Virus record (IMG/VR): IMGVR_UViG_3300032053_000201 | Coordinates: 1 to 38,981 of that record | DNA: 38,981 nt | Strand: one strand, 5' to 3' | From: a virus | Shown: one piece after another, positions 5,877 through 38,981 of the stretch | Position numbering within the stretch: position 1 is the stretch's first letter | Layout: the number at the start of each line of letters is the position of its first letter | The notes under the pieces: model-generated | Database searches by the model: none | Told to the model about the DNA's origin: nothing | The model's input: only the letters and a program-made list of their open reading frames with translations | Made by a program: the position numbers and the translations under genes

Positions 5877-7140
5877 GATGATAGATAGGGCAGCGGCGCC
5901 CGAGGACGCGAAACCCGTTCCGCGCTGCGGCTGTGCGGACCTGCGGCCGGATGAGCTGTTGAAGGCGGTCAGTCAGCTGCGGCCGCTGATGAACCGGCGG
6001 AAGGAGTCTCCGCGCTTCGCTGAAAGGCGGAGTCTCTGGATCGAGGCCAACGGCGAGAGCATGACGTTGTCGGCGTCCGATGGGGTCGTCTGGCGCAGCA
6101 AGAGCATCGGCGTCTCGGGCGGCCTCACGCCTTTCGCCTGCGGCGTCGACGGCTGCGCGCTCCTGGCTGCGACGGAGGCCCGGGCCGAAGATACGTTCAC
6201 GCTCGATTTCGAGGCGGAGACCAAGCTCCTGCGGGTGCGATACCAAAGGGGTACGGTCTGCCTCCCGGCGACCGGCGAGGCGCCGTTCACACGCCCGCAG
6301 GTCGAGGGCATGCCGCTCATCCTGCCTTGGGATCAACTGCGCGCGGCTCTCAAGGCCCTGCGCGATCTGCCCGCCGAGACGTCCAGTGCAGGAGTCCATT
6401 ACAGCCAGGGGTTCTGGCTGGAAGCGCAGGATGGCAAGCTGGAGGTGGTCGCCACCGACGGCCACCGCCTGGCGACGGTCCGGCTCGACGCGCCGGGACT
6501 GATTCTCCCCCCGGCCAAGCCGCCGACGGAGCAGCAGGAGAAGTTTGCGAAGGAGCACCCCGGCCTCCAGCAGACCTTCTCCGCCGCGCCGGGATTGATC
6601 CTCGACGGAGCGCCCGTGATGCGGCTGCTCAAGGATCGGGCGACAGAGGAGCCGCCCCTGCTGATAATCCTCGGCGAGGAGGCGCTGCTGCTCGAATGGG
6701 CAGCTTGCAGCTACGTCCTGCCGATCCTCGATGTGAAGCGCCCCGCCTGGCGGCGCATCATGCCGCCCGAATCCCCGCGGCGGATGACGGTCAACCTCGG
6801 CGAGCTCTCGTACAGCCTCTCCCGCATCGCGGCGCTGATCGGCGCTCTGCCCGAGCACGGCTATAACATGGCGAGGTTGCTCGCTAAGGACACGCAGCTA
6901 ACCGTCTCCTGGCGCGATCCCGCCGTTGGCCTCGGGCTCAAGGAGCGGATGGCCTGCAACTTCAGCGGCAGCCTTTCGGTCAGCGTCAACCCCGGCTATC
7001 TGCTCAGCCTGAGCCCGAAGGAGGCCGTGACCCTCACCCTCGACTTCGGCGAGAAGCCGCATACGCCCATATTCATCTGCACCCCGGAGAAGCCGGAATG
7101 GCGCGCCATCCTGATGCCGATCGCGGAAGATTTGAAATGA
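5866..7140 (+). CDS. dnaN-like: DnaN-like DNA polymerase III beta sliding clamp
   Basis: 424 residues, starting at the ATG after a strong AAGGAGGA site. The central hallmark VVATDGHRLATV is the DnaN domain signature. Near residues 285-310 the segment YVLPILDVKRPAWRRIMP matches the domain-3 region that precedes the P-x-Y-x-x-V-x-P motif of bacterial clamps. The family forms a ring around DNA and tethers DNA polymerase. At 424 residues it is longer than the usual 365-380, with an N-terminal extension of about 25. No phage DNA polymerase is visible in the window, so it probably recruits host polymerase or competes with the host clamp. It is strongly expressed by its ribosome site and coupled to the next gene by ATGA. 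Confidence 0.8.
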   Translation: MATEMIDRAAAPEDAKPVPRCGCADLRPDELLKAVSQLRPLMNRRKESPRFAERRSLWIEANGESMTLSASDGVVWRSKSIGVSGGLTPFACGVDGCALLAATEARAEDTFTLDFEAETKLLRVRYQRGTVCLPATGEAPFTRPQVEGMPLILPWDQLRAALKALRDLPAETSSAGVHYSQGFWLEAQDGKLEVVATDGHRLATVRLDAPGLILPPAKPPTEQQEKFAKEHPGLQQTFSAAPGLILDGAPVMRLLKDRATEEPPLLIILGEEALLLEWAACSYVLPILDVKRPAWRRIMPPESPRRMTVNLGELSYSLSRIAALIGALPEHGYNMARLLAKDTQLTVSWRDPAVGLGLKERMACNFSGSLSVSVNPGYLLSLSPKEAVTLTLDFGEKPHTPIFICTPEKPEWRAILMPIAEDLK

Positions 7141-7387: not shown

Positions 7388-7415
7388 GTTGCCGGTTGCC
7401 GGTTGCCGGTTGCCG
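7388..7415 (+). repeat. (GTTGCCG)4 heptamer array
   Basis: Four perfect units in the gap between 7373 and the GTG at 7435. The segment that follows, ACCGGGGAGGAAG, closely matches the one after the repeats at 2401-2544, so array and ribosome site look like one shared module. Confidence 0.95.
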
Positions 7416-7434
7416 GCAAACCGGGGAGGAAGTC

Positions 7435-9409: not shown

Positions 9410-9538
9410 GTGAACCAACAAGAGCACTACAAGCTGGTGCTCAGCGCCGCCGCCGAATACCGGCGGCACGGCTGGTTTCCCGTCCCGCTGACCGGCAAGG
9501 CGCCCCGCGTCGCCGAGTCCTTGGAGGATGGGACTTGA
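9410..9538 (+). CDS. 42-residue prim-pol N-terminal-like peptide
   Basis: Runs from the GTG at 9410, after GAGGAG, to TGA at 9536-9538, which overlaps the TTG start of the primase (TTGA). Its sequence (LSAAAEYRRHGWFPVPLTGKAPR) resembles the N-terminal strand-turn of bifunctional primase-polymerase domains, and resembles residues 15-40 of the next gene. It may be a remnant of a duplicated or broken primase start, now serving as a leader for translational coupling. Confidence 0.5.
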   Translation: MNQQEHYKLVLSAAAEYRRHGWFPVPLTGKAPRVAESLEDGT

Positions 9539-12123
9539 GCGCCGCGGGAATGTTGGACAGCCTGCCCCCAGGTTCTCCAGTTGTTCGTGCCGCCTGCCTC
9601 TACTACCGGCTCGGTTGGTGGCCTGTGGTCCTACGCGAGCCGGTATTCGACGGCAGCCATCAGGACGGCAAGGTCCCGACCCAGAAGGGCTGGCAGACGC
9701 TGCGCATGGACGAGGCGGAGATCGTCCGAGCCTTCCGCGAGAACAGCAATTGCGGGCTGATTCTCGGTGAGGCAAGCGGCCACCTAACCGATGTCGACCT
9801 CGACACCCCCCAGGCCGTGGCCAGCGCCTACGCCCTTCTGCCGGCCACGCCGATGCGCCATGGCCGCAAGAGCGGGGGTGTCGGTCACTACTGGTATCGC
9901 TGTCCCGAGTTGACCGCGATTCACACCTTCGCCGATCCAGAGGATGGTCAGCATCTGGTTCAGATCCGCTATAACGACAAGAAGGGCCTCCAGACGATGG
10001 TTCCGCCGAGCGTCCACGGCGAAACGCGCGATCTGCTGGTCTGGCTGGCGCGGACCGGCGCGGCGATTCTGGACGTTGCTGGCGCCCTGGACGTACTGAA
10101 ACCTGCCGCCGTGACGCGGTCCGCCCTGCTCTCCTCGGCCCAGCATGTCGCCTTGTGCGCGATGGCGGCGCGCGCGATGCCAGCCGCGGGCCTGCACGAA
10201 TGGGGACTGGCCCTCTGCGGATACCTGGCCCGGCATACCAACCCGGAATTCGGACACAAGCTGGTGCGTTGCATCATCCAGGCAGGCGGAAAAGAAGTTC
10301 GGTGCGACGAGTACCGCAAGATGCTGGATGACGCCTATCAACGGCTTGCGTCCGACGGCGGCCCGGTAAAAGGCTGGCAAAGCCTCGTCGAGGCAGTCGG
10401 GGAGAAGCGCGCTAGAAAGATCAGCGAATGGCTGGGCGCGATGGACGCGTTACCCCAGCAAATAAGGGGTCAAGGGGCTGAGCGCGCCGGCTTCCGGATC
10501 TGCTCGAAGTGCCAGGCGCGCCGGCCCGCAGATGAGGAGAAGTGCCCTAGCTGCGGAGCCGCCCGGTCCAAACTCATCAAGCCGCCCTCTGGCAAGCAAA
10601 AGATCGGCGTCAACCCGTACCGCTACGAGCTGAGCCTACTCCTAAACCTTACCGATGAGGGCAACGCCGAGCGCTTTCTCAAGCTCAACACCGGCAAGGT
10701 CCTGAGTTGCGAGCTGCTGGGCGGCTGGTACATCTGGGTCGAGGGCGAGGGCCGCTGGCGCCTGGACACGACGCGGCGGGCGAGGGACCTGGCGCGGGAG
10801 TGCGCCCGGCAGATGAGCGGCGAGGCGCTGGCCATCGCCGAGGACGTCAACGCCAAGGCCGCCGGCACCGAGAAGACGCAGAAGGTCCCGGCGGCGGACG
10901 CGCGGGGGCTGTGCTGCCACTGGGCGAGCCAGACGCTGGGCGGCCAGCGCATGGAGGCGTTGCTCAGTCTGGCGGCCGCGGACCGCCGCGTGGCCGTCGA
11001 GCCCGAGGAGCTGGATAGCGACCCGCTGCTCCTCAACGTGCAGAGCCACCTCCTCAGCCTCAGCGCGGAGGGCCTGGCTTTACCCCCTTTACCCCATGAT
11101 CCAGGCAAGCGCATCACCAAGCTGGCGCCGGTCGTCTACGACCCCGCCGCGACGTGCGAGCGCTGGATGATGTTCCTCTCCGAGATCTTCGGAGCGGACG
11201 AGGCCCTAATCGCGTTCATGCGCCGCCTGGCGGGGTACTGCCTCTTCGGCGGCAACCCGGAGCAGGTGATCGCATTCCTGTGGGGCACCGGCGCGAACGG
11301 CAAGAGCACGTTCCTGGAGACCATCTCCGAGCTGCTGGGCGACTACGCGGCCACGACCACCAGCGAGACGGTGCTGGCCAGGGAGGGCGGCAGCAACAAT
11401 CAGGTGTTCGCGCTGGCACGGCTCAAGGGCGCCCGCCTGGTCACGATGAGCGAGACGGAAGAGGGGCAGCGGCTGGCGGAGAGCCTGGTCAAGGTGATGA
11501 CGGGGGGGGAGAAGATCGCGGCGCGGTTCAGCCACGGCAACTTCTTCGAGTTCGTCCCGGAGTTCATCCCGGTGGTGGTGACCAACCACATGCCGGAGCT
11601 GCGCAACGTCGACGAGGCGATGCGGCGGCGGGTGCTGCTCATCCCCTTCCGCATGACGATCGCCGTCGAGGATCGAGATCCGTTCCTCAAGCGCACGCTG
11701 CGCGAGGAGCTCTCCGGCATCCTGAACTGGGCCCTGGACGGCTTGCGGGAGTACTACGAGCGGGTGAGCGACGGTGCCCCCGGCCTGGCGCCCCCGCCGA
11801 GCGTGCAGAGCGCCACCGCGGAATACTTCTCGGAGCAGGACCCCTTAGGCCCCTTTGCAGAGGGCGTGTGTCTTTTCGAGCCGCAGGCGCGATGTACCAA
11901 GACCGAGATATACAAGGCGTACATGCGGCACTGCGAGGAGACGGGCGCGTACTGCCTCAGCCAGACGCGCTTCGGGCGGCGCATGAAAGACCTGCTGAGC
12001 CTGAAGTACAACGTCCCGCGGGACCAGACCGAGTTCCGCAGCGGCCTGAGCCGCTGGTGGCTGGGCGTCGCGCTCAACGCCGGCGGCTTCATCCCACAGC
12101 CCGGCTCGGAGCCGCTCCTGTGA
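9535..12123 (+). CDS. Primase-polymerase / D5-type SF3 helicase (P4 alpha-like)
   Basis: 862 residues. The TTG start is backed by GGAGGA 6 bases upstream. Domains in order: a bifunctional prim-pol domain (about 15-200) with the acidic cluster Asp86, Asp88, Asp90 in TDVDLD; a zinc ribbon at 323-340 (CSKC and CPSC); a D5_N-type region (about 385-540); and an SF3 helicase with Walker A GTGANGKST at 584-592 followed by a SETEEGQ segment. The C-terminus (about 775-862) looks like a winged-helix D5/PriCT end. The family primes and unwinds DNA at a phage origin. Candidate iterons follow within 20 bases of its stop, as expected for a self-contained initiator. Confidence 0.88.
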   Translation: MSAAGMLDSLPPGSPVVRAACLYYRLGWWPVVLREPVFDGSHQDGKVPTQKGWQTLRMDEAEIVRAFRENSNCGLILGEASGHLTDVDLDTPQAVASAYALLPATPMRHGRKSGGVGHYWYRCPELTAIHTFADPEDGQHLVQIRYNDKKGLQTMVPPSVHGETRDLLVWLARTGAAILDVAGALDVLKPAAVTRSALLSSAQHVALCAMAARAMPAAGLHEWGLALCGYLARHTNPEFGHKLVRCIIQAGGKEVRCDEYRKMLDDAYQRLASDGGPVKGWQSLVEAVGEKRARKISEWLGAMDALPQQIRGQGAERAGFRICSKCQARRPADEEKCPSCGAARSKLIKPPSGKQKIGVNPYRYELSLLLNLTDEGNAERFLKLNTGKVLSCELLGGWYIWVEGEGRWRLDTTRRARDLARECARQMSGEALAIAEDVNAKAAGTEKTQKVPAADARGLCCHWASQTLGGQRMEALLSLAAADRRVAVEPEELDSDPLLLNVQSHLLSLSAEGLALPPLPHDPGKRITKLAPVVYDPAATCERWMMFLSEIFGADEALIAFMRRLAGYCLFGGNPEQVIAFLWGTGANGKSTFLETISELLGDYAATTTSETVLAREGGSNNQVFALARLKGARLVTMSETEEGQRLAESLVKVMTGGEKIAARFSHGNFFEFVPEFIPVVVTNHMPELRNVDEAMRRRVLLIPFRMTIAVEDRDPFLKRTLREELSGILNWALDGLREYYERVSDGAPGLAPPPSVQSATAEYFSEQDPLGPFAEGVCLFEPQARCTKTEIYKAYMRHCEETGAYCLSQTRFGRRMKDLLSLKYNVPRDQTEFRSGLSRWWLGVALNAGGFIPQPGSEPLL

Positions 12124-12326: not shown

Positions 12327-12635
12327 ATGAGGCAGAAGAGCCAGTTGCCGGTTGCCGGTTGCCGGTTGCCGGCCGCCCCCGCAGATGATTACCCGGCGCC
12401 TGCCGGGCGCAAGCTCGCGGAGTGGGACGCGGCGCTGCGGCGGGAGCTCGCCCGGCGGGACGAGCGGCTGCTGGCGGTGTACGAGATCTACGCCGACCGC
12501 TTCGGCCGCGACTGCACGGCGGCGCAAATCGCTAGGGCGCTGAAGGAGCAGCATGGCCCCTGGGCACCCTCCGAGCGTAGCTGCCAATACTGGATGCACC
12601 GAGTGCTGAGCCTTCAGGCCGACTTCCAGCCTTGA
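12327..12635 (+). CDS. Hypothetical protein, possibly helix-turn-helix
   Basis: 102 residues, from the ATG at 12327 after AAAAGGAG. Residues 6-16 are encoded by a GTTGCCG array. The rest is helical, with a segment AAQIARALKEQ and later ERSCQYWMHRV, which could be a helix-turn-helix, but I do not recognise the family. Position between origin and terminase suggests a late-gene or replication regulator (inference). Confidence 0.55.
   Translation: MRQKSQLPVAGCRLPAAPADDYPAPAGRKLAEWDAALRRELARRDERLLAVYEIYADRFGRDCTAAQIARALKEQHGPWAPSERSCQYWMHRVLSLQADFQP
12344..12371 (+). repeat. (GTTGCCG)4 heptamer array, coding
   Basis: Four perfect units starting 17 bases into the gene at 12327. One unit more or fewer would shift its frame. 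Confidence 0.95.
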
Positions 12636-12934: not shown

Positions 12935-13738
12935 GTGAGAACCCGCGAGGCAGTTGCCGGTTGCCGGTTGCCGGTTGCCGGCGAGCACCGCGAGATCGCG
13001 GACCGCCTCATGCTCCTGCGGTGTCCGCGCGTAGATCCGAAGGACGGCTTCCCGGGCCTGCCCGTCCCTTGGGCCGAGGTGCAGGCCAACCTCGGGCTCT
13101 CCGAGCGCGAGCTGCTGCCGTACCGCTGGCTCATCGCGGCGGAGCTGCATGCCGAGAATCAAGGCTGGAAGAGCATCGCCCTACACCCGGCGGTGGACCT
13201 GCGCGCGGACACGCTCTCGAAAAACCACGCGCGGGCGCGCCTGCCGGGCGGCATCCGCTTCCCGGAGTACGTGCAGGCATTCCGGGAGGCGGCCTGCCGC
13301 CGGCTGCGGGAGCTGCAGGAGGAGCGGGGCGCGGAGGCTGCGGAGCAGCTGCACGGCATCGTCAAGCGCGCGGCGCTCAACCTGGGGCGGGTGCAGGACC
13401 TGCTGGACGACTACTTCGCCAACCCGATGCAGGAGCGCATGGAGACCGCCGAGCAGACAATCATCGAGTTCGGCGCGAAGTTCCCGGGGCGCCCGGCCAA
13501 GCGGCGCATCAAGCCCGACTTCGCGTTGGGCCTGCTCCAGATGCAGACGAACCTCATCGGGGCGGTGAAGCTGGCGCGGGACGTGCTGATGCTGACGGCG
13601 GTCGAGGAAGGGACCGGCCAGCCTCGGGAGGACGTGCTGCCGACGGACGAGGAGACGGCCAAGTTGCTGGCGCGGAGCGAGCGGCTGATCGCCGAGATGC
13701 GCGGCTATGGCGCGACCCGGGAGGCAGCGAGTGCCTAG
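12935..13738 (+). CDS. terS: Probable terminase small subunit
   Basis: 267 residues, from the GTG at 12935 with GGAGG 6 bases upstream. Residues 7-15 come from a heptamer array. The body is helical: an N-terminal part with WAEVQANLGLSERELLPYRW, which could be a helix-turn-helix, and long charged helices at about 105-185 fitting an oligomerisation region. Assignment rests mainly on position directly before the large subunit, whose start overlaps its stop by 8 bases. It would recognise the packaging site and feed DNA to the large subunit. I do not see a named TerS family. Confidence 0.6.
   Translation: MRTREAVAGCRLPVAGEHREIADRLMLLRCPRVDPKDGFPGLPVPWAEVQANLGLSERELLPYRWLIAAELHAENQGWKSIALHPAVDLRADTLSKNHARARLPGGIRFPEYVQAFREAACRRLRELQEERGAEAAEQLHGIVKRAALNLGRVQDLLDDYFANPMQERMETAEQTIIEFGAKFPGRPAKRRIKPDFALGLLQMQTNLIGAVKLARDVLMLTAVEEGTGQPREDVLPTDEETAKLLARSERLIAEMRGYGATREAASA
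12953..12980 (+). repeat. (GTTGCCG)4 heptamer array, coding, in terS
   Basis: Four perfect units beginning 18 bases into the small terminase gene, in frame with it. A one-unit change would put the gene out of frame. Confidence 0.95.
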
Positions 13739-15317: not shown

Positions 15318-16810
15318 GCGCCGCAGAACGAGTTCCCGGTTGCCAGTTGTCAGTTGCCGGCAACACGCAGCCTGAGCCGAACACCGTCTACCAGGGCGAT
15401 TGCGTCGCGGTGATGCGCGGCTGGCCGGATAGCTTCGTGGATACGGTGCTCACCGACCCGCCCTATGAATTGACGAGTGGCGGCAACCGCGGCTTCATGG
15501 GTAAGGCGTGGGATGGCACGGGCGTGAGCTTCCGCGTCGAGACATGGGCCGAAGTGCTGCGCGTCTGCAAGCCCGGCGCCACGATGCTGTGCTTCGGCGG
15601 CACCCGCACCTGGCACCGCCTCTGCTGCGCCATCGAGGACGCGGGCTGGGAGATAACCGACTGCCTGATGTGGCTCTACGGCAGCGGCTTCCCGAAGAGC
15701 CTCGACATCAGCAAGGCGCTCGATGAGCTTGCCTTCCAGGATTGGCTGCGCGCGCACCCGGCGGAAGCGGCGCGGCTGAAGGCATTGAAAGCCGCGAAGG
15801 ATGTCAAGGCGTATCGCGCGCTCAAGACCGAGCTGCGCAAGGCGGCGGGCGCGGAGCGGGAACTCGGAGATGTTCGCGGACCGCGCCAGGCAAACGCTCT
15901 GAAGCTCGGGACTCGCACCAGCGAAGGCCATCATCCCGGCTGGATACGGCCATGGATGAGCGACCCTGAAGGCGTCGAGCGCAATTGCCGCACCTCGATT
16001 CCGGCCACTGACGCCGCGAAGCTCTGGGACGGCTGGGGCACGGCGCTCAAGCCCGCCTGGGAGCCGATCATCTTCGCCCGCAAGCGCCGCGAGGGCTGCT
16101 TTGCCGCCAACGCGCTCAAGCACGGCGTGGCGGGGTTGAACATCGACGGGACGTGGATAGGGGATAGCAAGCGAATCCCTGGGAGCGCGCGCATCGAGGC
16201 GGAGATGGGCTATCACGGCGGTTGGGGACCACGGACCGAAGAGATGACCGGAATGCGTGCGGATGTAGGCCGCTGGCCCGCCAACCTGATGCTCGACGAA
16301 GCCGCCGCCGCGATGCTGGACGAGGCGAGTGGAGAAAGCACTTCGGGTGCGCCACGCGCTGAGCGCGGCGTTGGTGGGATCTGGTCGGTGGGAAATGGCA
16401 TACCAGCGGGCGCTCAGCATGGCGATTCCGGCGGCGCGTCGAGGTTCTTCTACACCGCCAAGGCGAGCAGCTCCGAGCGCAACGCGGGCCTTGGTGCGAT
16501 GAGATTCGAGCGCGTCGTCTCCTCCGTTCATGGCGACATGGGCGACGAGAAGAACCCGAACCTGCCGCGCGGCAACGACCATCCCACGGTCAAGCCGCTG
16601 GCGCTCATGGAATGGCTGGCGAAGCTGACGATGACGCCTACGGGCGGGCTGGTGCTCGACCCCTTCTTTGGCTCAGGCACGACGGGCGTGGCATGCAACC
16701 GCGTGGGGCGGCCCTGGATCGGCATCGAGCTGGACCCGCACTACTGCGACATCGCGCGCAAGCGGTGCGCGCAGCAAGGGTTGATGAACGCGGAGCTGCG
16801 CTATGCCTAG
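15311..16810 (+). CDS. DNA methyltransferase (N4-cytosine/N6-adenine, beta-like order)
   Basis: 499 residues. The catalytic motif DPPY is at 49-52 and precedes the SAM-binding motif DPFFGSGTT at 450-458, the order of beta-class amino-methyltransferases. Between them lie a long insertion and a [10 protein letters not shown] segment (around 428-437), typical of this class just before the SAM site. It probably modifies phage DNA to escape host restriction, or marks packaging-related sites. The GTG at 15311 or 15314 overlaps the terL stop. Residues 8-16 derive from a heptamer array. Such methyltransferases between terminase and portal occur in other phages. Confidence 0.88.
15332..15359 (+). repeat. 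GTTGCCG-type heptamer array, coding, in methyltransferase
   Basis: Four units: GTTCCCG, GTTGCCA, GTTGTCA, GTTGCCG, about 20 bases into the gene and before the catalytic region. Length change by one unit would disrupt the frame. Confidence 0.9.
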
Positions 16811-19322
16811 GAGAGGCTGGTCCTGGCAGAACGGGCAGGTGATCGTCGAGAATCGCCCCGGCCTCTTCGCGCAAGCCGCACCCGCGACGGCGCCGCGCCC
16901 GGCGTTGCGCGTCGAGGTGGCGCCCTCCAAACGCGACACCTACGAGACCGGCGCCGAGTACCTGGACGTCCTGCCGAACCCCGACGTCACGCTGGCCCGG
17001 GCCCAGGCCAAGCACAGCGAGTACCGCTACCCCTACGGCGTCTATGAGGAGGTCCGCCGGCGCGACCTGCACCTCCAGAGCGTCCTGGCGCAGCGTATCG
17101 GCGCGGTGCTGGCGGCGCCCCGCGCCATCCAGCCGGGCAACGAGACGCCGGCGGGGATGGCCTGCGCCGAGCTGGCGCGGGCGGCGGTCGACGCCCTCGA
17201 AGGCTGGGAGACCGACCTGCGCCAGATGCAGGGCGCCATCTACCTCGGACTGAGCGTGCACGAGGTGCTATGGACGCTGGACAGCCTGGAGCTGCCCGGC
17301 GGGGCGAGCCGCGAGACGGTACGGCCGCTCAGGCTGATGCAGCGCCACCCTCGACGCTTCCTCTTCAACGCCGACAGCGAGCTCCGGCTGCTGACCCCGG
17401 ACACGATGAACAACGGCATCGAGGTGCCGGAGCGGACCTTCATCGTGCATACGCCGCTGGCGGAGTACGAGAACCCCTACGGCGACGGGCTGGCCGGCAG
17501 CACGTACTTCTATAGCCTCTTCAAGCGGGATGCACTTCTCTGGTGGCAATTATTCAACGAACGATTCGCCAGCCCCACGGTCAAACTGACGCATCCGGCG
17601 CAGGCGACCGACAGCGAGAAGAACAACTACAAGAGCATCATCCGCAGCATGCAGCAGCAGACCGGCGTGCTGATCCCCGAAGGCATCCTGCTGGAGCTGC
17701 TCGAAGCCAACCGCACCGGGACGGTCACCAGCTACAAGACGTTCCTGGAGTACGTCGACGCCGCCGAGAGCAAGCTGGTGCTGGGCCAGACGCTCACGAC
17801 GCAGCAGAGCGACACCGGCTCGTACTCGCTGGGCAAGGTGCATCTGCTGGTGCGCGGCGACATCATCGCCCAGGACGCGCAGGCGCTATGCCAGACAGTG
17901 AACCTGCTGCTGCGCTGGATCATCGACCTCAACTTCGCGCCCGGACAGAGGGTCTATCCGGTCTACCAAATCGACCTCGACGCACCGGAGGACGCGGCGG
18001 CGAACCTCAACAAGTTCGACGTGGCGCTGAACAAGCTGCGCCTGCCGCTGAGCAAGGCGCAGATCTACGCCGAGGCGAACCTAGTGCGTCCGGAGCTGGC
18101 GCCGGGGACGCCGGACGACGACGTACTCATGCCGCCGGCGCCCGCGGCCAACCCATTCGCCGCCCCGCTGGACTTCACTGCGACTTCGCTGCGCGGAGGA
18201 GGCGCAAGGCGCGATGGGCTGCACCCGCAACGCGGAAATACCGCAATGGCGGGGCGCGTATACAGCCTGGCGGCCAGCGAAGGGCAGCTGCCGGGACGGC
18301 GCCTGGTGGAGCTGATGCGCGCGGGCGTGTCCGCCTGCGCCAAGTACACCGAGCTGATCCCGGACTTCACCCGCGATTGGATACTCGAGCAGGCCGGGAA
18401 GCTGGGCCTCAAAGCGGGCGAGCCCGTCGGCGACCCGGCGAAGCTGCCCTGGGACGAATGGGCGCTGCCGGACGAGATGCGGGAGTCCCTGCTGGACCGG
18501 CTCAATGATGATCTGATCATCGGGTACCTCGTCGGCCGCGAGACGGCGATGAAAGAAGGCAGTAGGCAGAAGGCAGCAGGCAGTAGGCAGCAACTACTCA
18601 GCGCGGCGGACGAGACCAAGCCGCGCGAGAACCCGCTGATCGAGCCGCTTTTCGGGACCAAGCGGATGATCCCGCGCGAGGTTCTCAGCGTGTTCACCCG
18701 CATGGTGCACGAGGGCATGACCTGGGAGGAGTTCTACAGGCTGGACGCCCTCGGGCGCCACGCCAGCTTTACCGCCTGGGATCTCTGCGAGGCCGACGTG
18801 CGCCACATCGGCGGCGCGATGCAGGACGCGATGCACTGGGGCTGGACAGTGCAGCAGTTCGCCGACTACCTCTACGACCGCCTGGAGGCGCGCTACGTCG
18901 AGCAGGGGACGGCGCTGCACGCCTGGCACGTCGAAACGATCTACCACACGAACCTGGCGAAGGCGTACAACACGGCGCAAATGGACGAGGTGTGGGCGGA
19001 CAAAGAGTTGTTCCCGTACATCGAGTTCCTGAACCCGGACCCGCAGTACCCGACGTGCGTGGAGATGAGCGGCAAAGTCTGGCCGGTGGACGACCCGACA
19101 TGGCGCAGCTACATTCCGCCGCTGCACTTCAACTGCGGCAGCAGCATCGCCACGGTCACCGCGGGGATGCTGGAGAGGTCCGGCGTCAAGCCGCAGACCG
19201 CGCCGCCGGTGGGACAGCCGGAGTGGTACTCCGGCCCCGGCGGCAAGGGCGTCGCCGCCCCCTTCGGCGCCTGGGCGCCCAGCGACGAGCGATACAAGAA
19301 CCTGGAGGAGCAGATGAGATGA
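16803..19322 (+). CDS. Fused portal (Mu gp29-like, DUF935) and MuF head morphogenesis protein
   Basis: 839 residues. Residues about 30-430 match the Mu gp29/DUF935 portal family: [13 protein letters not shown] early, then [23 protein letters not shown] and a helical stem. Residues about 640-810 carry a MuF domain: [22 protein letters not shown] (about 752), and the closing PPLHFNCGS in place of the usual PxHxxCRC. In Mu these are separate neighbouring genes (29 and 30/F), so this is a fusion. The linker (residues about 585-597) is coded by an AGGCAGN heptamer array. The portal forms the DNA entry vertex; MuF is a minor head protein, sometimes ejected. It starts 8 bases inside the methyltransferase end. 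Confidence 0.85.
18557..18591 (+). repeat. AGGCAGN heptamer array inside the portal-MuF gene
   Basis: Five units: AGGCAGT, AGGCAGA, AGGCAGC, AGGCAGT, AGGCAGC. They fall in the linker between portal and MuF domains, coding Gly/Ser/Arg/Gln/Lys/Ala-rich residues. Confidence 0.92.
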
Positions 19323-26124: not shown

Positions 26125-26152
26125 GTTGCCGGTTGCCGGTTGTCAGTTGTCA
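26125..26152 (+). repeat. GTTGCCG/GTTGTCA heptamer array
   Basis: Four units: GTTGCCG, GTTGCCG, GTTGTCA, GTTGTCA, in the gap between 26115 and the ATG at 26177, followed by GAACCAGGAGCAGGAG. Confidence 0.95.
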
Positions 26153-26176
26153 GTAGAACCAGGAGCAGGAGTAGCA

Positions 26177-26626
26177 ATGAGCGAGACCGAGATCAACAGC
26201 ATCAGCGAGGCCAGCGCCGCGATCGCCGCCTACGAGCCGCCCCAGCTCTTCGGCTTGACGGTGCGGAAGGTGCCCTGGATGAAGCTGCCCGAGCTCATGG
26301 AGCAGCTCGACAGCCAGATCCTCGCCGCCATCCGCACCTTCGCCGATGAGGAGACGGGCGACCCCGGCCCGGTGCTCGTCTCATCCCTCGCGTTCGCGAA
26401 CAAGCTGCTCCTGCTGAGCTGCCGCATCGACAGCGCCAAGCTGGAGTCGCTGGATATGGACTGGGACCAGGGCGCGCAGCTCGCCGCCCTGGCCGTCAAG
26501 GTTAACATCCAGGACCTGAAGGCGGTCATCGGTTTTTTCGCCGACGCGCTGAAAGACGCGCTGAGCGGTTTCAGGAGCAAGTCGAGCGCGGACGGGAGCG
26601 AGTCCTCGAAGCCGGACGAAGGGTAG
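26177..26626 (+). CDS. Tail assembly chaperone G (zero-frame product)
   Basis: 149 residues after AGGAG. Helical, with an acidic, Ser-rich end. It sits between tail tube and tape measure, the fixed place of lambda G-like chaperones. Its 3' part contains the slippery site T TTT TTC at 26533-26539 in the correct register. Ribosomes not slipping end at 26624-26626. G proteins coat the tape measure during tail assembly and are absent from the virion. Confidence 0.78.
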   Translation: MSETEINSISEASAAIAAYEPPQLFGLTVRKVPWMKLPELMEQLDSQILAAIRTFADEETGDPGPVLVSSLAFANKLLLLSCRIDSAKLESLDMDWDQGAQLAALAVKVNIQDLKAVIGFFADALKDALSGFRSKSSADGSESSKPDEG

Positions 26627-27000
26627 TCGAGCTTCCCTCGCACCCGTCCGCCCTGCATGAAGTGCTCGTCGAGATGGCGGGCGCCCTGGGAGGCGTCGAG
26701 CAGGCCAGGGCCCTCTGCCACGAGGAGATGCTGATCTGCATGGCCGTGATCGAGCACAGCCGCACCGTGAGCGCCCTGCAGGAGCAGCTCGACTCGTTCT
26801 ACTCCAACCCGCCCCTGCCGGCGCAGGACGACAACGGCAAGAGCGAGTGCGAGTGGTGCAGCGGGCTCGCCGATGTGGAGGCGGAGCTGCGGACCGAGCT
26901 CGACTGCTGGCATTACCCGCTGGACCATCCCCAAGGCGAGCGCTTTCTAGCAGTTGCCGGTGGCCAGTTGTCAGTTGTCAGTGAAGAAGGTGAGATGTGA
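26177..27000 (+). CDS. Tail assembly chaperone GT, -1 frameshift product
   Basis: Translation of 26177-26539, a -1 slip at TTTTTTC, then reading from base 26539 gives a frame with no stop to TGA at 26998-27000: about 274 residues, 121 from G plus 153 from T. The T part carries helices and a C-x-x-C (ECEWC) and ends in residues coded by a heptamer array. A separate start for T (GTG at 26662) lacks a ribosome site. The frame of T is exactly -1 relative to G, as in lambda G/GT. Confidence 0.75.
26533..26539 (+). promoter_or_regulatory. -1 ribosomal frameshift site T TTT TTC
   Basis: The heptamer fits X XXY YYZ with zero-frame codons TTT and TTC (26534-26539). Both tRNAs can re-pair after slipping one base back. 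About 88 bases of zero frame remain beyond it, while the -1 frame stays open into T. Confidence 0.78.
26953..26980 (+). repeat. GTTGCCG/GTTGTCA heptamer array, coding, end of GT
   Basis: Four units: GTTGCCG, GTGGCCA, GTTGTCA, GTTGTCA. They code the last residues of GT just before the tape measure ribosome site AAGGTGAG. Confidence 0.92.
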
Positions 27001-30000
27001 GCCCGGCGGGGAGCCTCACGGCCAAGCTCACCATCACGGGCAGCACGTCGGGCGCCGTCAGCGAGCTCAAGAAGCTGGAAGCTGGATTCAAGCAAGTCCA
27101 CGACGGCCTACAGAAATTCGATGCGGGTCTGCGCGGCCTGCAGCGCATCGCCGGGATCGGATTCGGCGCTTTGGCCGGCGGGTTCACTCTGGTGGCGCGC
27201 GAAGGCCTGAAGGCCCTGAGCACCGTCGGCAGCCTCACCCGCGGATTCGAGACGCTCCTCAAGAGCAAGGCCGAAGCCGACAAGCTCACCGCCGATCTGC
27301 TCAAGTTCGCCGCCACCTCCCCATTGAAGATCGAGGACATCGGCAGCGCCACGAAGTACCTCCTGCTCCAAGGCGAGGCCGTGAGCGGGCTGACGGACAA
27401 GTGGAAGATCTTCAGCGACGTCGTCTCGGCCCTCAGCACGGCCCAGGAGCCGATGCTGATGCAGGAGGTCGCCGAGTTCTACGAGCGCGCCAAGGCCGGC
27501 GCCCTGCGCGCGCCGATGCTGCTCAGGTTCGGCATCAGCAAGCAGGAGCTGAAGGAGTATGGCGTCCAGTTCGACGAGATGGGCCAGGTCATCAAGGAAG
27601 CGGGGATCACGACCGAAGCTGCCAGCAAGCAGATCGGCGAGGCCATCCTGAGGATCTTCCGGGACACCTTCGCGGGTGCCACGGAGCTGAAGCTCGCCAC
27701 AGCCGGCGGCATGCTCCAGGAACTCAAGAATACGCTGACTCCTGGACTCGCGCTTATCGGGAAGGAGGTGAATGATCAGTGGAAGAGGATACTGAAGAGC
27801 GTCAGGGAGGCGCTCGCCGGCCTGACCGGCGATCCGGAGATCATGGCCGGTTTGAAGGCGGGCGCGAAAGCGCTGGGCGATCTGCTGGAGCCGTTGGTCA
27901 CCGCGGGCACGGGAAAGCTGGCGCAGCTGGCCGCCCGTCTCAAGGAGCACCCGGAGGCATTGGCCGAGAGCGCGAACAAGCTCACCTTCGGACTGAAGGC
28001 GCTGGGTGTCATCCTGGCGATACTGGTGGGAGCCAGCGGCTTGGTGAGACTCGTGGATTGGCTGGTCAAGGTCGCCTTTTACTGCAAGGCCGCCGCCGTG
28101 GTTATCAACACGAGCTTAATCCCCGCCCTCGGCAGACTGGGAGTGGTGATCAGTGGCGTGAAGTTCACGACGATAGCGTCGGGGATCGCCTCCTTGGGGC
28201 CGGCTATTGCTAGCGTCGCGACCGCCGCGGCCAATGCCATCCCATTGCTCGCCGCGCTGGCAGCGGCATGGGAGCTGTATAACCGCATGAAGGGCGGCCC
28301 GCAGGCCAGCTACGCTCGTGAATCAGCGACGTCCGCCGCCCTGGCCTTGGAACTCGGAGGCCCCGCCCCGGGCATCCCGTGGGATGTAGGACAGATGCTC
28401 GCCGGCACCACGTCCAACATCGGCGCCTTGCGACTCGCCGATCTGGCACTGGATCGCGCTCGCGCCAAACTGCCGCGTGGTCGCAAAATCCTCACACCAG
28501 CTGAGACCGAACAGAAAGCCGCCGAAGACCAGGCCGCCAAGGATGCCCGCGAGAAGCTGGAGGCGGGGCTGCGCTCGTTCCTGCCGCCGCAATACAACAT
28601 CATCAGCTCCTGGTACGACTCGCTGCGCAAGGGCGGCATCCATGGCGGTGTGGACTTCCCGGCGCCCGCGGGCACGCCCGTCAAAACCATCGGGGAGATG
28701 ACGGTCAAAGCCATCTACAACACCTATCCCGGAAGCAGCAAGGACAAGGGCGTCGTGCTGGTCGACGCGCAGGGCAACTACGTCGCGTTGCACCACGTGA
28801 CCAACCTGCGCGACGCCCTGGGGCGCGGGCTGGTGGCCGGCGACATCCTCAAAGACAAGACGGCCTTCGCCGACCTCGTAAAGCAGAAGCGCCCGCACCT
28901 CGACGTGAAGGTAATGTCGGCGGCGGTCGGGCAAGCCTGGGAAGCCGCGGGATTCGCGGGGCAGCCTTGGCGCAAAGGGCAGACGTTCGATCCCCTTACA
29001 GCAGGGTACTTCGGCCCGCCGACCGGCGAGCATGCCGCGTCCGTGAAGTTCGGCTGGCAAGCCGCCGCGGCCAGCCCGGTGATGAAAGCCTTCGAGGACG
29101 CGCGCAACGAAGTCGACCAAATGACCCGCAAGCTCGCCGTCTACCGCGAGATGGTGCAGCAGGGCACGCTCAGCCAGGCGCGGCTGACCGACGAGGAGAC
29201 CAAGTACCGCCAGATACTCGCGGGCCTCTACGAGAAGCTGAAGATCAGCCTGAGCGCGGAGGACTTCACGGCGCTGCAGGAGAAGTACCCCGAGATCTTC
29301 GCCAAGATGGAAGCGGCGTCCAAGGAGCTCGTCAGCACCGAGCGCGTCGAGGGCCTGAAGGCGGCGATGAAGACCGCCGAGGAGCGCTTCAACGCCCTGG
29401 CGGCGCAGGTGGACAGCCTGCGGGGCGCGCTGCGCGGCCTGGAAGATGCATATTCCAGCCTGCGGGCCAGTCACGCCAGGATGAAAGGCTTCACGCTGGA
29501 AGCGGTGGGGATCGAGTACGACGCGGAGATGCGGCGGCAGGACCGGGCGCGCGAAGACCTGGAGCGGTACAGGGAGGAGAACGCCAAGGCGCTCGCGGCG
29601 CGAGAGCCGGGGGCTGTCGCTCAAGAAGCGCAGCTGGTAGCACAAGGGCTGGAGGCCATGAAGGGCCTCGTGGACATGGTCACCGGCCTCAAAGCCCAGG
29701 AAGGCATGGCGCCCTACGCCAAGGAGATGGAGGCAGCACTCGGCCCCGCTTATGAGTATTGGGCGGCGCAAGGCGAACAGGCGATAAGCGCCGGTGAGGT
29801 GCAGCTCGTCGCCGCGCAACAACTCGTCCAGGCTGGCGCTGATCTGAAGGGCGCTGCCGGATGGCTGCAGGCCGCGGCGAGCGCGCTGATGAACGCCGCG
29901 GGCCAGATCAGCGCCGCGCAGATTGCGGCTGCGACGGCAGCAGCAGCAGCGGCAATCCAAGGAACGGCACCGGCAATCATTCCGCCGGGAACGGCGGGGG

Positions 30001-30125
30001 CGGAACCCGTGGCCGTCGGGAGCATAGGCGCACCAGGATATGCCGCGTTGGGAACCGCGCCGGCGCTCGGTGGCGGCGGGACGACCCAATATTTCTGGAC
30101 GAAGCCTTGCGAAGGCCCCAGCTGA
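26997..30125 (+). CDS. Tape measure protein, first part, with M23-like domain
   Basis: 1042 residues, GTG start overlapping the GT stop. The N-terminal third has coiled coil and helix-rich stretches, and membrane-like segments lie at about 335-365 and 410-440. An LytM/M23-like peptidase region lies at about 535-640: His549-x3-Asp553 in IHGGVDF, HH at 599-600, but HLD (634-636) where HxH is expected, so catalysis may be lost. Helical coiled coil follows. The tape measure sets tail length and is ejected to aid DNA entry. The frame is interrupted by TGA at 30123-30125, and the same frame is open beyond it to 30842. Confidence 0.85.
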   Translation: MSPAGSLTAKLTITGSTSGAVSELKKLEAGFKQVHDGLQKFDAGLRGLQRIAGIGFGALAGGFTLVAREGLKALSTVGSLTRGFETLLKSKAEADKLTADLLKFAATSPLKIEDIGSATKYLLLQGEAVSGLTDKWKIFSDVVSALSTAQEPMLMQEVAEFYERAKAGALRAPMLLRFGISKQELKEYGVQFDEMGQVIKEAGITTEAASKQIGEAILRIFRDTFAGATELKLATAGGMLQELKNTLTPGLALIGKEVNDQWKRILKSVREALAGLTGDPEIMAGLKAGAKALGDLLEPLVTAGTGKLAQLAARLKEHPEALAESANKLTFGLKALGVILAILVGASGLVRLVDWLVKVAFYCKAAAVVINTSLIPALGRLGVVISGVKFTTIASGIASLGPAIASVATAAANAIPLLAALAAAWELYNRMKGGPQASYARESATSAALALELGGPAPGIPWDVGQMLAGTTSNIGALRLADLALDRARAKLPRGRKILTPAETEQKAAEDQAAKDAREKLEAGLRSFLPPQYNIISSWYDSLRKGGIHGGVDFPAPAGTPVKTIGEMTVKAIYNTYPGSSKDKGVVLVDAQGNYVALHHVTNLRDALGRGLVAGDILKDKTAFADLVKQKRPHLDVKVMSAAVGQAWEAAGFAGQPWRKGQTFDPLTAGYFGPPTGEHAASVKFGWQAAAASPVMKAFEDARNEVDQMTRKLAVYREMVQQGTLSQARLTDEETKYRQILAGLYEKLKISLSAEDFTALQEKYPEIFAKMEAASKELVSTERVEGLKAAMKTAEERFNALAAQVDSLRGALRGLEDAYSSLRASHARMKGFTLEAVGIEYDAEMRRQDRAREDLERYREENAKALAAREPGAVAQEAQLVAQGLEAMKGLVDMVTGLKAQEGMAPYAKEMEAALGPAYEYWAAQGEQAISAGEVQLVAAQQLVQAGADLKGAAGWLQAAASALMNAAGQISAAQIAAATAAAAAAIQGTAPAIIPPGTAGAEPVAVGSIGAPGYAALGTAPALGGGGTTQYFWTKPCEGPS
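28572..28910 (+). other. M23/LytM-like peptidase region in tape measure
   Basis: HxxxD zinc motif at residues 549-553 and a YVALHH strand are present. The final HxH motif reads HLD. Tail-length proteins with cell-wall domains help drill through peptidoglycan; here activity is doubtful. Confidence 0.55.
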
Positions 30126-30159
30126 GGGGCCCCGCAGACTCAGTGGTCCACTGAGAGTC
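30114..30159 (+). other. Two hairpins around the in-frame TGA of the tape measure gene
   Basis: GGCCCC (30114-30119) pairs with GGGGCC (30126-30131), with the TGA (30123-30125) in the loop. CTCAGTGG (30139-30146) pairs with CCACTGAG (30148-30155), extended by GA(C)/GTC. No T-run follows, so a terminator is unlikely; a readthrough or recoding element is possible. Confidence 0.55.
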
Positions 30160-30842
30160 CGGGAGCAGGATGGGAGAAGGGTTACGGCACGAAAACGGTT
30201 GGCGGCCCGGAGTTCAATCCAAGCGGCATGCGCTCCTTCGTGCTGCGAGCGGGCGGCGAGTACCTGGGAGGGGGTTACGGTGAGAAGTACAAGGGGCTCG
30301 GCATCCCCACCGCCGGCGGAGCAGAGGAGCAGCAGAAGGCGCAGGAGGCAGGCCAACAGGCGGGGCAGGACGCGCTCGGCAGCTTCGTGTCCGGCCTCCA
30401 GGAAGCGGCGCGGCTGGCGGGAGAGGCTCTGATCACCGGCGACTGGGCGAGCGCCAAGGAGGCTCTGGCGCGCGCGGTAGGAGACGCGCTCAAGGGCATC
30501 ATCTCCTCCGTCATGCCTAACCTGGGGCCCTTCGGCGGCCTGGTGAGCGGCTTTCTCGGCGGCCTCATCGACGGCCTGGTGAAGAAGTTCGGCGGTAAGA
30601 AGGCCGAGGTGCAGAAGGTCGAGGTCGTCAACGCCGTGCGCGTCATCCCCGACAGCCTCAACTACCTCATCGCCGCCAGCCCCACGTCCCGGCTCTTCGG
30701 GCTGCGCGCGCAGGCCGGCGGCGCCAGCTTCGCGCCCGGCGTCGCGGTGCAGATCAACTTCGCCCCGGGCGCGGATAAGGTGGTCACGGCGATGGTGACG
30801 GGCCGCCTGCGCCTGGCAAACAACTCCGGAGGCGTCCATTGA
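30126..30842 (+). CDS. Tape measure C-terminal part, same frame after in-frame TGA
   Basis: The frame continues without stop from 30126 to TGA at 30840-30842. Its sequence (VSGLQEAARLAGEAL, FGGLVSGFLGGLIDGLVKKFGG) is a typical tape measure C-terminus. The first possible in-frame ATG is at 30228 and has no ribosome site, so independent translation is unlikely. With readthrough the full protein would be about 1281 residues. A sequencing or assembly error, a real nonsense mutation, or recoding all remain possible. Confidence 0.6.
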   Translation, partial: GAPQTQWSTESPGAGWEKGYGTKTVGGPEFNPSGMRSFVLRAGGEYLGGGYGEKYKGLGIPTAGGAEEQQKAQEAGQQAGQDALGSFVSGLQEAARLAGEALITGDWASAKEALARAVGDALKGIISSVMPNLGPFGGLVSGFLGGLIDGLVKKFGGKKAEVQKVEVVNAVRVIPDSLNYLIAASPTSRLFGLRAQAGGASFAPGVAVQINFAPGADKVVTAMVTGRLRLANNSGGVH

Positions 30843-35186: not shown

Positions 35187-35893
35187 GCCCGGAGCAGTTG
35201 CCGGTTGCCGGTTGCCGGTTGCCGGTTGCCGGTTGCCGGTTGCCGGTTGCCGGTTGTCAGTTATCAGGAGGGCGGGAGCTGAGAGCGGGGGACGTCGTGC
35301 TGTTCGCGCGGCTCACGTTGCGCCAGTCGCTGCGCAGCGAGGGTGCTCGCGGCCTCATCGGCTGGATAGGCCATTGGATCACCGCGGGGTGCAGCTGGTA
35401 CACCGAGGGTCCCTTCGACGGCTTCTGGGAAGACGTGCATGTCGGGATCGTGGTGGAGTGGCAGGGGGCGCCGGCGCTGTTGGAGATGCTGAGCACGACG
35501 AACTTCACCCTCAGCCCGCTCCCCCTGCGCCTGGACGCGTACCCGGGGACCGTGCTCGTGATCCCGCTCAGCGAGCGCTACCGCGCGCACTTCGACGTCC
35601 TGCGCGTCTGCGCGTGGATCGAAGAGCACCGGCGCGACCGCTACCGCTGGGGCGGGCTTCCCTTCGCCGTGCTGCGCTGCATGGTGGGCTGGCGCAGCGC
35701 GGGGGCGATGTTCTGCAGCGAGGCGGTGGTGACGCTGCTGGTGCACCTGGGCATTATCCCGCGGGAGCTGAAGGTGCAGCGCGGAAACCGCACCGCGACC
35801 GCCGAGGTCGAGCCGCAGGGCTACGCACCCTGCGAAGTGGCGCGCCTGCCGCAGCTGGCCCGCAATCTGTTCTGGACCTGGAGGACCCTATGA
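35183..35893 (+). CDS. NlpC/P60-like permuted papain-fold hydrolase with repeat-coded N-terminus
   Basis: 236 residues, starting in the ATGA overlap. Residues 5-27 or so are coded by ten heptamers. After them, GDVVLFA, HVGIVVE with His86, and FCSEAVV with Cys178 match the permuted papain-like (YiiX/NlpC-like) family, in which His precedes Cys. The family hydrolyses amide bonds in peptidoglycan or acyl groups. It lies between the coiled-coil membrane protein and the endolysin. No later start fits, because GDVVLF follows the array within 15 residues. Confidence 0.72.
   Translation: MSPEQLPVAGCRLPVAGCRLPVAGCQLSGGRELRAGDVVLFARLTLRQSLRSEGARGLIGWIGHWITAGCSWYTEGPFDGFWEDVHVGIVVEWQGAPALLEMLSTTNFTLSPLPLRLDAYPGTVLVIPLSERYRAHFDVLRVCAWIEEHRRDRYRWGGLPFAVLRCMVGWRSAGAMFCSEAVVTLLVHLGIIPRELKVQRGNRTATAEVEPQGYAPCEVARLPQLARNLFWTWRTL
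35197..35266 (+). repeat. Longest heptamer array: (GTTGCCG)8 + GTTGTCA + GTTATCA, coding
   Basis: Ten units, 70 bp, eight of them perfect. It starts 14 bases into the hydrolase gene. Perfect repeats of this length are expected to slip in replication, and a one-unit change would shift the reading frame of the hydrolase. Confidence 0.97.
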
Positions 35894-38080: not shown

Positions 38081-38981
38081 CTACCTCACCGTCTATCCCG
38101 ATCCCCACGTTGAAACGCTGACGGTTGACGGGCTATGCGCACGGGGCATTGCGGGTACATGGGCGGAGGTACGAGATGGTGCTGGGACAGCGAGTAGCGA
38201 TAGCGACTCGTCTAATGTTGCACCACGACTTCTCAGTAGTAACACGACTGATGCGTGGGCAAGGATTACCCGTGCGCTATTGCTTTTCGATTGCCGTGCT
38301 CTCACCAGTGCTGCGCAAATTAGTGATGCCTCGCTAAGTCTGCGCGGCAGTGCTGTTGCGAATAACTATGCGGGTTCCGTCATCATTTGTGCATCGGCAC
38401 CTGCGGCTAACACAGCAGTCGCTACTGGTGATTATCTGCTGATGAGAGACTTGACGACGCCGTTCTCCAATCCGTTTGCACTCAGCGGATGGTCTACCGA
38501 CGGCTATAACGTCATCCCGCTTATCGCGGCAGGCATAGCCGCCATTGTCAAATCGGGCGACACGAGCGCGATGACGAAGCTGGGCCTGCGCATCAATTGG
38601 GACATTACGAATACGCCGCCGACATGGCGGAATTCGAGGGAGGATTCCGTTACCTGGCGCACCGCCGACTACGCCAACCTCACCAGCGACCCCTACCTGT
38701 ACATCACGTATACGCTAGGCGGCTCGCCGTACACCTTGACTGCCGATGCCGCCGTGTTCGCGCTGACGGCGAACGCGGCCACGCTTAGGGCGGCGCGTAG
38801 GCTGGTGGCGGGCACGCCGAGCTTCGTGCTGACGGCGAACGCGGCCACGCTTAGGGCGGCGCGCAGGCTGGTGGCGGGCACGGCGAGCTTCGCGCTGACG
38901 GCGAACGCGGCCACGCTTAGGGCGGCGCGCAGACTGGCTGCGGGCACGGCGAGCTTCGTGCTGACGGCGAACGCGGCCACG
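38073..38981 (+). CDS. Repeat tail protein, N-terminal part (open at window end)
   Basis: Open from the ATG at 38073 to the window end with no stop. The first 225 or so residues are a Ser/Ala/Thr-rich, probably beta-rich domain with SVTWRTADYANLTSDPYLYITYTLG near its end, a pattern often seen before receptor-side repeats. Three complete 22-residue units and part of a fourth follow. Joined to the window start by overlapping 38939-38981 with 1-43, the frame continues to 481, for about 448 residues. Bases 38100-38700 are less GC-rich than the rest. A receptor-binding appendage is likely by position and composition. Confidence 0.75.
   Translation, partial: MPSYLTVYPDPHVETLTVDGLCARGIAGTWAEVRDGAGTASSDSDSSNVAPRLLSSNTTDAWARITRALLLFDCRALTSAAQISDASLSLRGSAVANNYAGSVIICASAPAANTAVATGDYLLMRDLTTPFSNPFALSGWSTDGYNVIPLIAAGIAAIVKSGDTSAMTKLGLRINWDITNTPPTWRNSREDSVTWRTADYANLTSDPYLYITYTLGGSPYTLTADAAVFALTANAATLRAARRLVAGTPSFVLTANAATLRAARRLVAGTASFALTANAATLRAARRLAAGTASFVLTANAAT
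38757..38981 (+). repeat. 66-bp tandem repeat in tail gene (3' window end)
   Basis: Units at 38757, 38823, 38889 and a partial one at 38955. The segment 38807-38932 is identical to 1-126. Confidence 0.92.

Follow-up and report, generated by a model that had tools for sequence, protein, structure and literature searches.

A conserved in-frame TGA in a phage tape measure gene and its possible readthrough

The stretch of DNA analysed here (the window) comprises positions 1 to 38,981 of the IMG/VR record IMGVR_UViG_3300032053_000201, an uncultured bacterial virus. On its plus strand one reading frame extends from GTG 26997 to TGA 30842 and contains a single internal stop, the TGA at 30123-30125; translation thus bears out an earlier note on this DNA, according to which this TGA alone breaks the frame. 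The part of the tape measure gene that ends with the UGA (26997-30125) has a GTG start with the Shine-Dalgarno sequence AAGG and encodes 1042 amino acids, which match the tape measure profile phrog_9959 (E 3.5e-7) and include an M23-like domain mid-protein. Its assignment is based on this profile match and on its place between a chaperone frameshift pair, the usual neighbour of tape measure genes, and the distal tail genes. At 26533-26539 the tail chaperone pair (26177-27000) has TTTTTTC, a canonical heptamer for -1 slippage. The -1 frame stays open as far as 27000, and the slippery site is kept in the relative described below. The in-frame coding region that follows the stop (30126-30842, plus strand, 238 codons) corresponds to the C-terminus of the tape measure, the part which usually joins the tail tip. 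A profile search with these 238 codons gave no convincing match; they are helical and hydrophobic in composition, a make-up that is common at tape measure C-termini. TGA terminates 21 of the 37 called genes in the window (TAG 10, TAA 6) and is therefore not generally decoded as sense; a changed genetic code was rejected on this ground, TGA being the commonest ordinary stop. No tRNA genes were found in the window.

A single relative of this tape measure was found, IMGVR_UViG_3300032069_000866, which shares approximately 86% DNA identity with the window phage. It has the identical in-frame TGA at its positions 5992-5994, followed by a fully open frame. The two phages differ by about 14% overall and by 8% over the last 1.7 kb of the tape measure gene, and a sequencing error is excluded because two genomes this divergent would not share one. 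The earlier note had suggested looking for the stop in relatives and had named, as evidence against its own reading, relatives in which two distinct genes have a ribosome site between them; the one relative has the stop, and this two-gene arrangement was not found in it. Viral contigs were scanned with the C-terminal part, the N-terminal part, aligned pairs, the capsid, the terminase, a distal tail gene and the motif FWxKPC[DE]G, and every query returned the same tape measure relative and no second one; nine capsid relatives seen in these scans are without a homologous tape measure. No homologue was found in scans of cellular genomes or, by tblastn, in phage and plasmid collections, and none that lacks the stop in any of these collections or among the viral contigs. 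Since the tape measure was found in two genomes only, what can be said of its function rests on inference. The middle of the protein is swapped between the two phages (28200-29100 in the window, 2842-5991 in the relative) and consists of the M23-like peptidase in the former and of an unrelated Cys-containing segment, with no convincing match in Pfam, in the latter.

Comparison of the window with the relative gives the post-stop frame a dN/dS of 0.16 and 94% amino acid identity, and this dN/dS is similar to the 0.18 before the stop; in the other two frames the ratio is about 1.6 to 2.8. The post-stop frame has no indels and no further stops in either phage. An in-frame stop followed by a conserved and selected frame is what readthrough calls for and, judged by this selection, the post-stop part is used. 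A frameshift at the stop was considered as well: the +1 frame has no stop before 30432, yet the substitutions there follow frame 0 and frameshifting is therefore unsupported. The local absence of synonymous change at 30177-30325 looked suggestive, but a similar stretch occurs at 29709-29828. A weak match to phrog_23287 (unknown function) at 30138-30371, which begins before ATG 30228 and has E values of 0.02-0.09 for proteins and 2e-4 per genome, was discounted because three unrelated control genomes match too. An AlphaFold2 model of the region with the TGA read as Trp had a pLDDT of 34 and was set aside.

The first possible independent start after the stop is ATG 30228 (30228-30230, plus strand), and the 102 nucleotides between the UGA and this codon (30126-30227) contain no in-frame ATG, GTG, TTG, CTG or ATH. 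This stretch is constrained: 6 of its 102 sites differ between the two phages, against about 21 expected from the synonymous rate (P 3e-5), and there are no indels. Read in frame 0 its dS is 0.16 and its dN 0.03, a ratio of about 0.2 that is drawn from six changes only. Its codon score of -3.2 is low for coding sequence in this phage (2.6th percentile among true coding segments), yet it exceeds 98-99% of the wrong-frame segments that are open and roughly 95% of the open shuffles. The score is unevenly distributed, with -6.2 for the first 45 nucleotides after the stop and +2.9 for the last 57 before ATG 30228. We take this stretch to be coding, with a beginning that is RNA-constrained or of low complexity, a reading that stops short of proof.

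Two hairpins surround the stop. Hairpin 1 (30114-30131, plus strand, -13.5 kcal/mol) is a perfect 6-bp stem of GGCCCC (30114-30119) and GGGGCC (30126-30131) that encloses the TGA in the 6-nucleotide loop AGCTGA. Hairpin 2 (30139-30155, plus strand) lies 20 nucleotides past the UGA and has the form CTCAGTG-GTC-CACTGAG, with a 7-bp stem, the loop GTC and -7.6 kcal/mol computed for the 17 nucleotides. Folding thus confirms what had been claimed from the sequence, namely a stop in the loop of a GGCCCC/GGGGCC stem and a second, near-perfect hairpin after it. Both are also present in the one relative, where the earlier note had advised looking for them: hairpin 1 keeps six pairs through a 1-nucleotide bulge despite two base changes (-9.9 kcal/mol), and all seven pairs of hairpin 2 are retained, one of them as G-U in place of G-C. 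Among the 932 TGA triplets on both strands of the window, 14 sit in a loop closed by a perfect stem of at least 6 bp and 15 have a perfect stem of at least 7 bp within 40 nucleotides downstream; this site is the only one of the 932 that combines both features, in a test that was devised after the site had been seen. Compared with shuffles, the fold z-scores of the region are unremarkable within the window (-0.6 to -1.5), and Rfam has no match at the site except a chance match to a CRISPR repeat. Statistics thus lend the hairpins no support as conserved RNA structures.

The most likely explanation for this arrangement, to which we give about an even chance, is that the UGA is decoded by a fraction of ribosomes and that the gene gives rise to tape measure forms of 1042 and 1281 residues. 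Most ribosomes would terminate at codon 1043 and release the short form, while some would decode the UGA as an amino acid, most simply via a near-cognate tRNA-Trp, and so produce the 1281-residue form with its helical and hydrophobic C-terminal part; the RNA structure surrounding the stop would delay termination. That ribosomes read through, which residue they insert and what the hairpins and the two forms do are inferences. Readthrough is supported by the TGA kept in the relative, by the open and selected frame beyond it, by the 102 constrained nucleotides devoid of a start codon and by the Shine-Dalgarno sites that nearly all other genes possess. Against it stand the limitation of the comparison to two genomes, the poor coding score of the first 45 nucleotides with the whole 102 only at the 2.6th percentile, and hairpins that are ordinary in shuffle tests. 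A typical efficiency of a few percent would, moreover, leave the presumably essential full-length form a minor product. The proposal of the earlier note, that readthrough yields short and long forms, accordingly stands as regards the conserved TGA and the selected frame, and is weakened by the possible start at ATG 30228 and by hairpins that lack statistical backing.

The main rival to readthrough is a split gene, in which the UGA marks the end of the tape measure and the last 204 residues form a second protein, initiated at ATG 30228 and perhaps coupled to upstream translation, with both proteins cooperating in the tail. This is a tentative alternative, and a less probable one. ATG 30228 and a GGAG at 30209-30212 are identical in both phages, the codon score climbs before and at this ATG after the poor first 45 nucleotides, and same-frame neighbours of a stop and a start exist elsewhere in the window. 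The GGAG hybrid has -6.1 kcal/mol, and 4 of 23 other starts have hybrids that are no stronger; nearly all other genes of the phage have Shine-Dalgarno sites, with a median hybrid of -9.3 kcal/mol. However, the GGAG is located 15 nucleotides upstream of the ATG, against about 11 at most for other cores in the phage, the other same-frame neighbours among tail and head genes start 0-12 nucleotides past the stop, and the 102 nucleotides upstream of ATG 30228 are constrained in a way that favours frame 0. The claim that there is no ribosome site for an independent start is therefore close to correct: the spacing is outside the range of this phage, although a conserved GGAG exists. A further ATG at 30170, with GGGAG four nucleotides upstream, is in a different frame and opens only 37 codons.

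Selenocysteine insertion is an improbable reading in which SelB decodes the UGA and hairpin 2 serves as the bacterial SECIS element; a conserved Cys lies close by (KPCEGP[S/T]-U-G). In the window phage, hairpin 2 falls inside the bSECIS rules for bacterial selenoproteins with its 3-nucleotide loop starting GU, 7-bp stem, distance of 20 nucleotides from the UGA and -7.6 kcal/mol (PMC13188914). It is retained in the relative with a G-U pair, and the Cys four codons upstream of the UGA, the one positive sign for selenocysteine, is conserved in both phages. Against this, 4-8% of all TGAs in the window pass the same rules, and the upper stem of the relative, at -6.0, lies above the limit of -7.5, the sole rule missed there. 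The protein differs from known cases in being a tail protein for which no Cys homologue was found, the single homologue carrying the TGA as well, and it shows no sign of a redox domain; titles and abstracts of the literature searched hold no phage structural selenoprotein. It is similarly improbable that the full-length tape measure is made as a selenoprotein or by means of a dedicated UGA-readthrough RNA element; if it were, tail assembly would hang on a decoding ratio or on the selenium supply of the host. Decay of the gene, such that the C-terminal part is no longer made, is very unlikely and has nothing in its favour beyond the stop itself; it is contradicted by the selection on the post-stop frame, which equals that before the stop, with no indels or extra stops in either phage. 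Hardly any likelihood attaches to ribosome hopping over a gap that begins at the UGA in the manner of T4 gene 60, where the stop codon also lies in a hairpin within one gene (PMC11194080). The poor coding score of the first 45 nucleotides and a GGGAG within the gap would fit such a bypass, but gene 60 requires identical take-off and landing codons, and the two phages do not offer them: the stop is preceded by AGC in the window phage and by ACC in the relative, and no shared frame-0 landing position fits both.

The readthrough proposed here has partial counterparts in known systems. In phage lambda the tape measure gpH is cleaved to gpH*, a shorter form without the C-terminus, which resembles the proposed short form and arises by proteolysis, not by decoding. 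The A1 protein of Q-beta depends on a UGA in a virion gene that yields short and C-terminally extended forms (PMC8067240, PMC6526423); that gene is the coat gene of an RNA phage, whereas the present case would be a readthrough in the tape measure gene of a dsDNA tailed phage. Recoding in the tail cassette of tailed phages is known from gpG/gpGT and E/E', two proteins with a common N-terminus (PMC5009743, PMC3091744), which result from a -1 frameshift in a chaperone gene and not from a stop in the tape measure gene; in the window phage a site of this kind is present at 26533-26539. Chaperone frameshifts are a known source of two-form expression in phage tail cassettes, and no report of a tape measure gene that retains an internal stop codon was found in the literature searched. 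If real, readthrough at this site would provide a natural system for studying how tail assembly depends on the efficiency of termination.

The genome has several further features of note. At 16803-19322 a single gene of 839 amino acids joins a Mu-type portal to a Mu F-like head protein; the two are separate in many annotated phages that match. A fragment resembling the primase N-terminus of the relative (9410-9515) lies in another frame just before the phage's own primase gene (9535-12123), an arrangement that resembles a recombination scar. The heptamer GTTGCCG and its variants (GTTGTCA) form short arrays that are scattered between genes and at gene starts, at 2400-2590, 7388-7416, 12340-12372, 12953-12981, 26126-26155, 26950-26985 and 35197-35256, and the relative has related sequence close to where its tape measure gene ends. 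One 66-bp tandem repeat array is found at both ends of the record (1-276 and 38750-38981) and corresponds to a single contiguous stretch of the relative; the record is therefore probably circularly permuted, with its break within a gene that bears the repeats.
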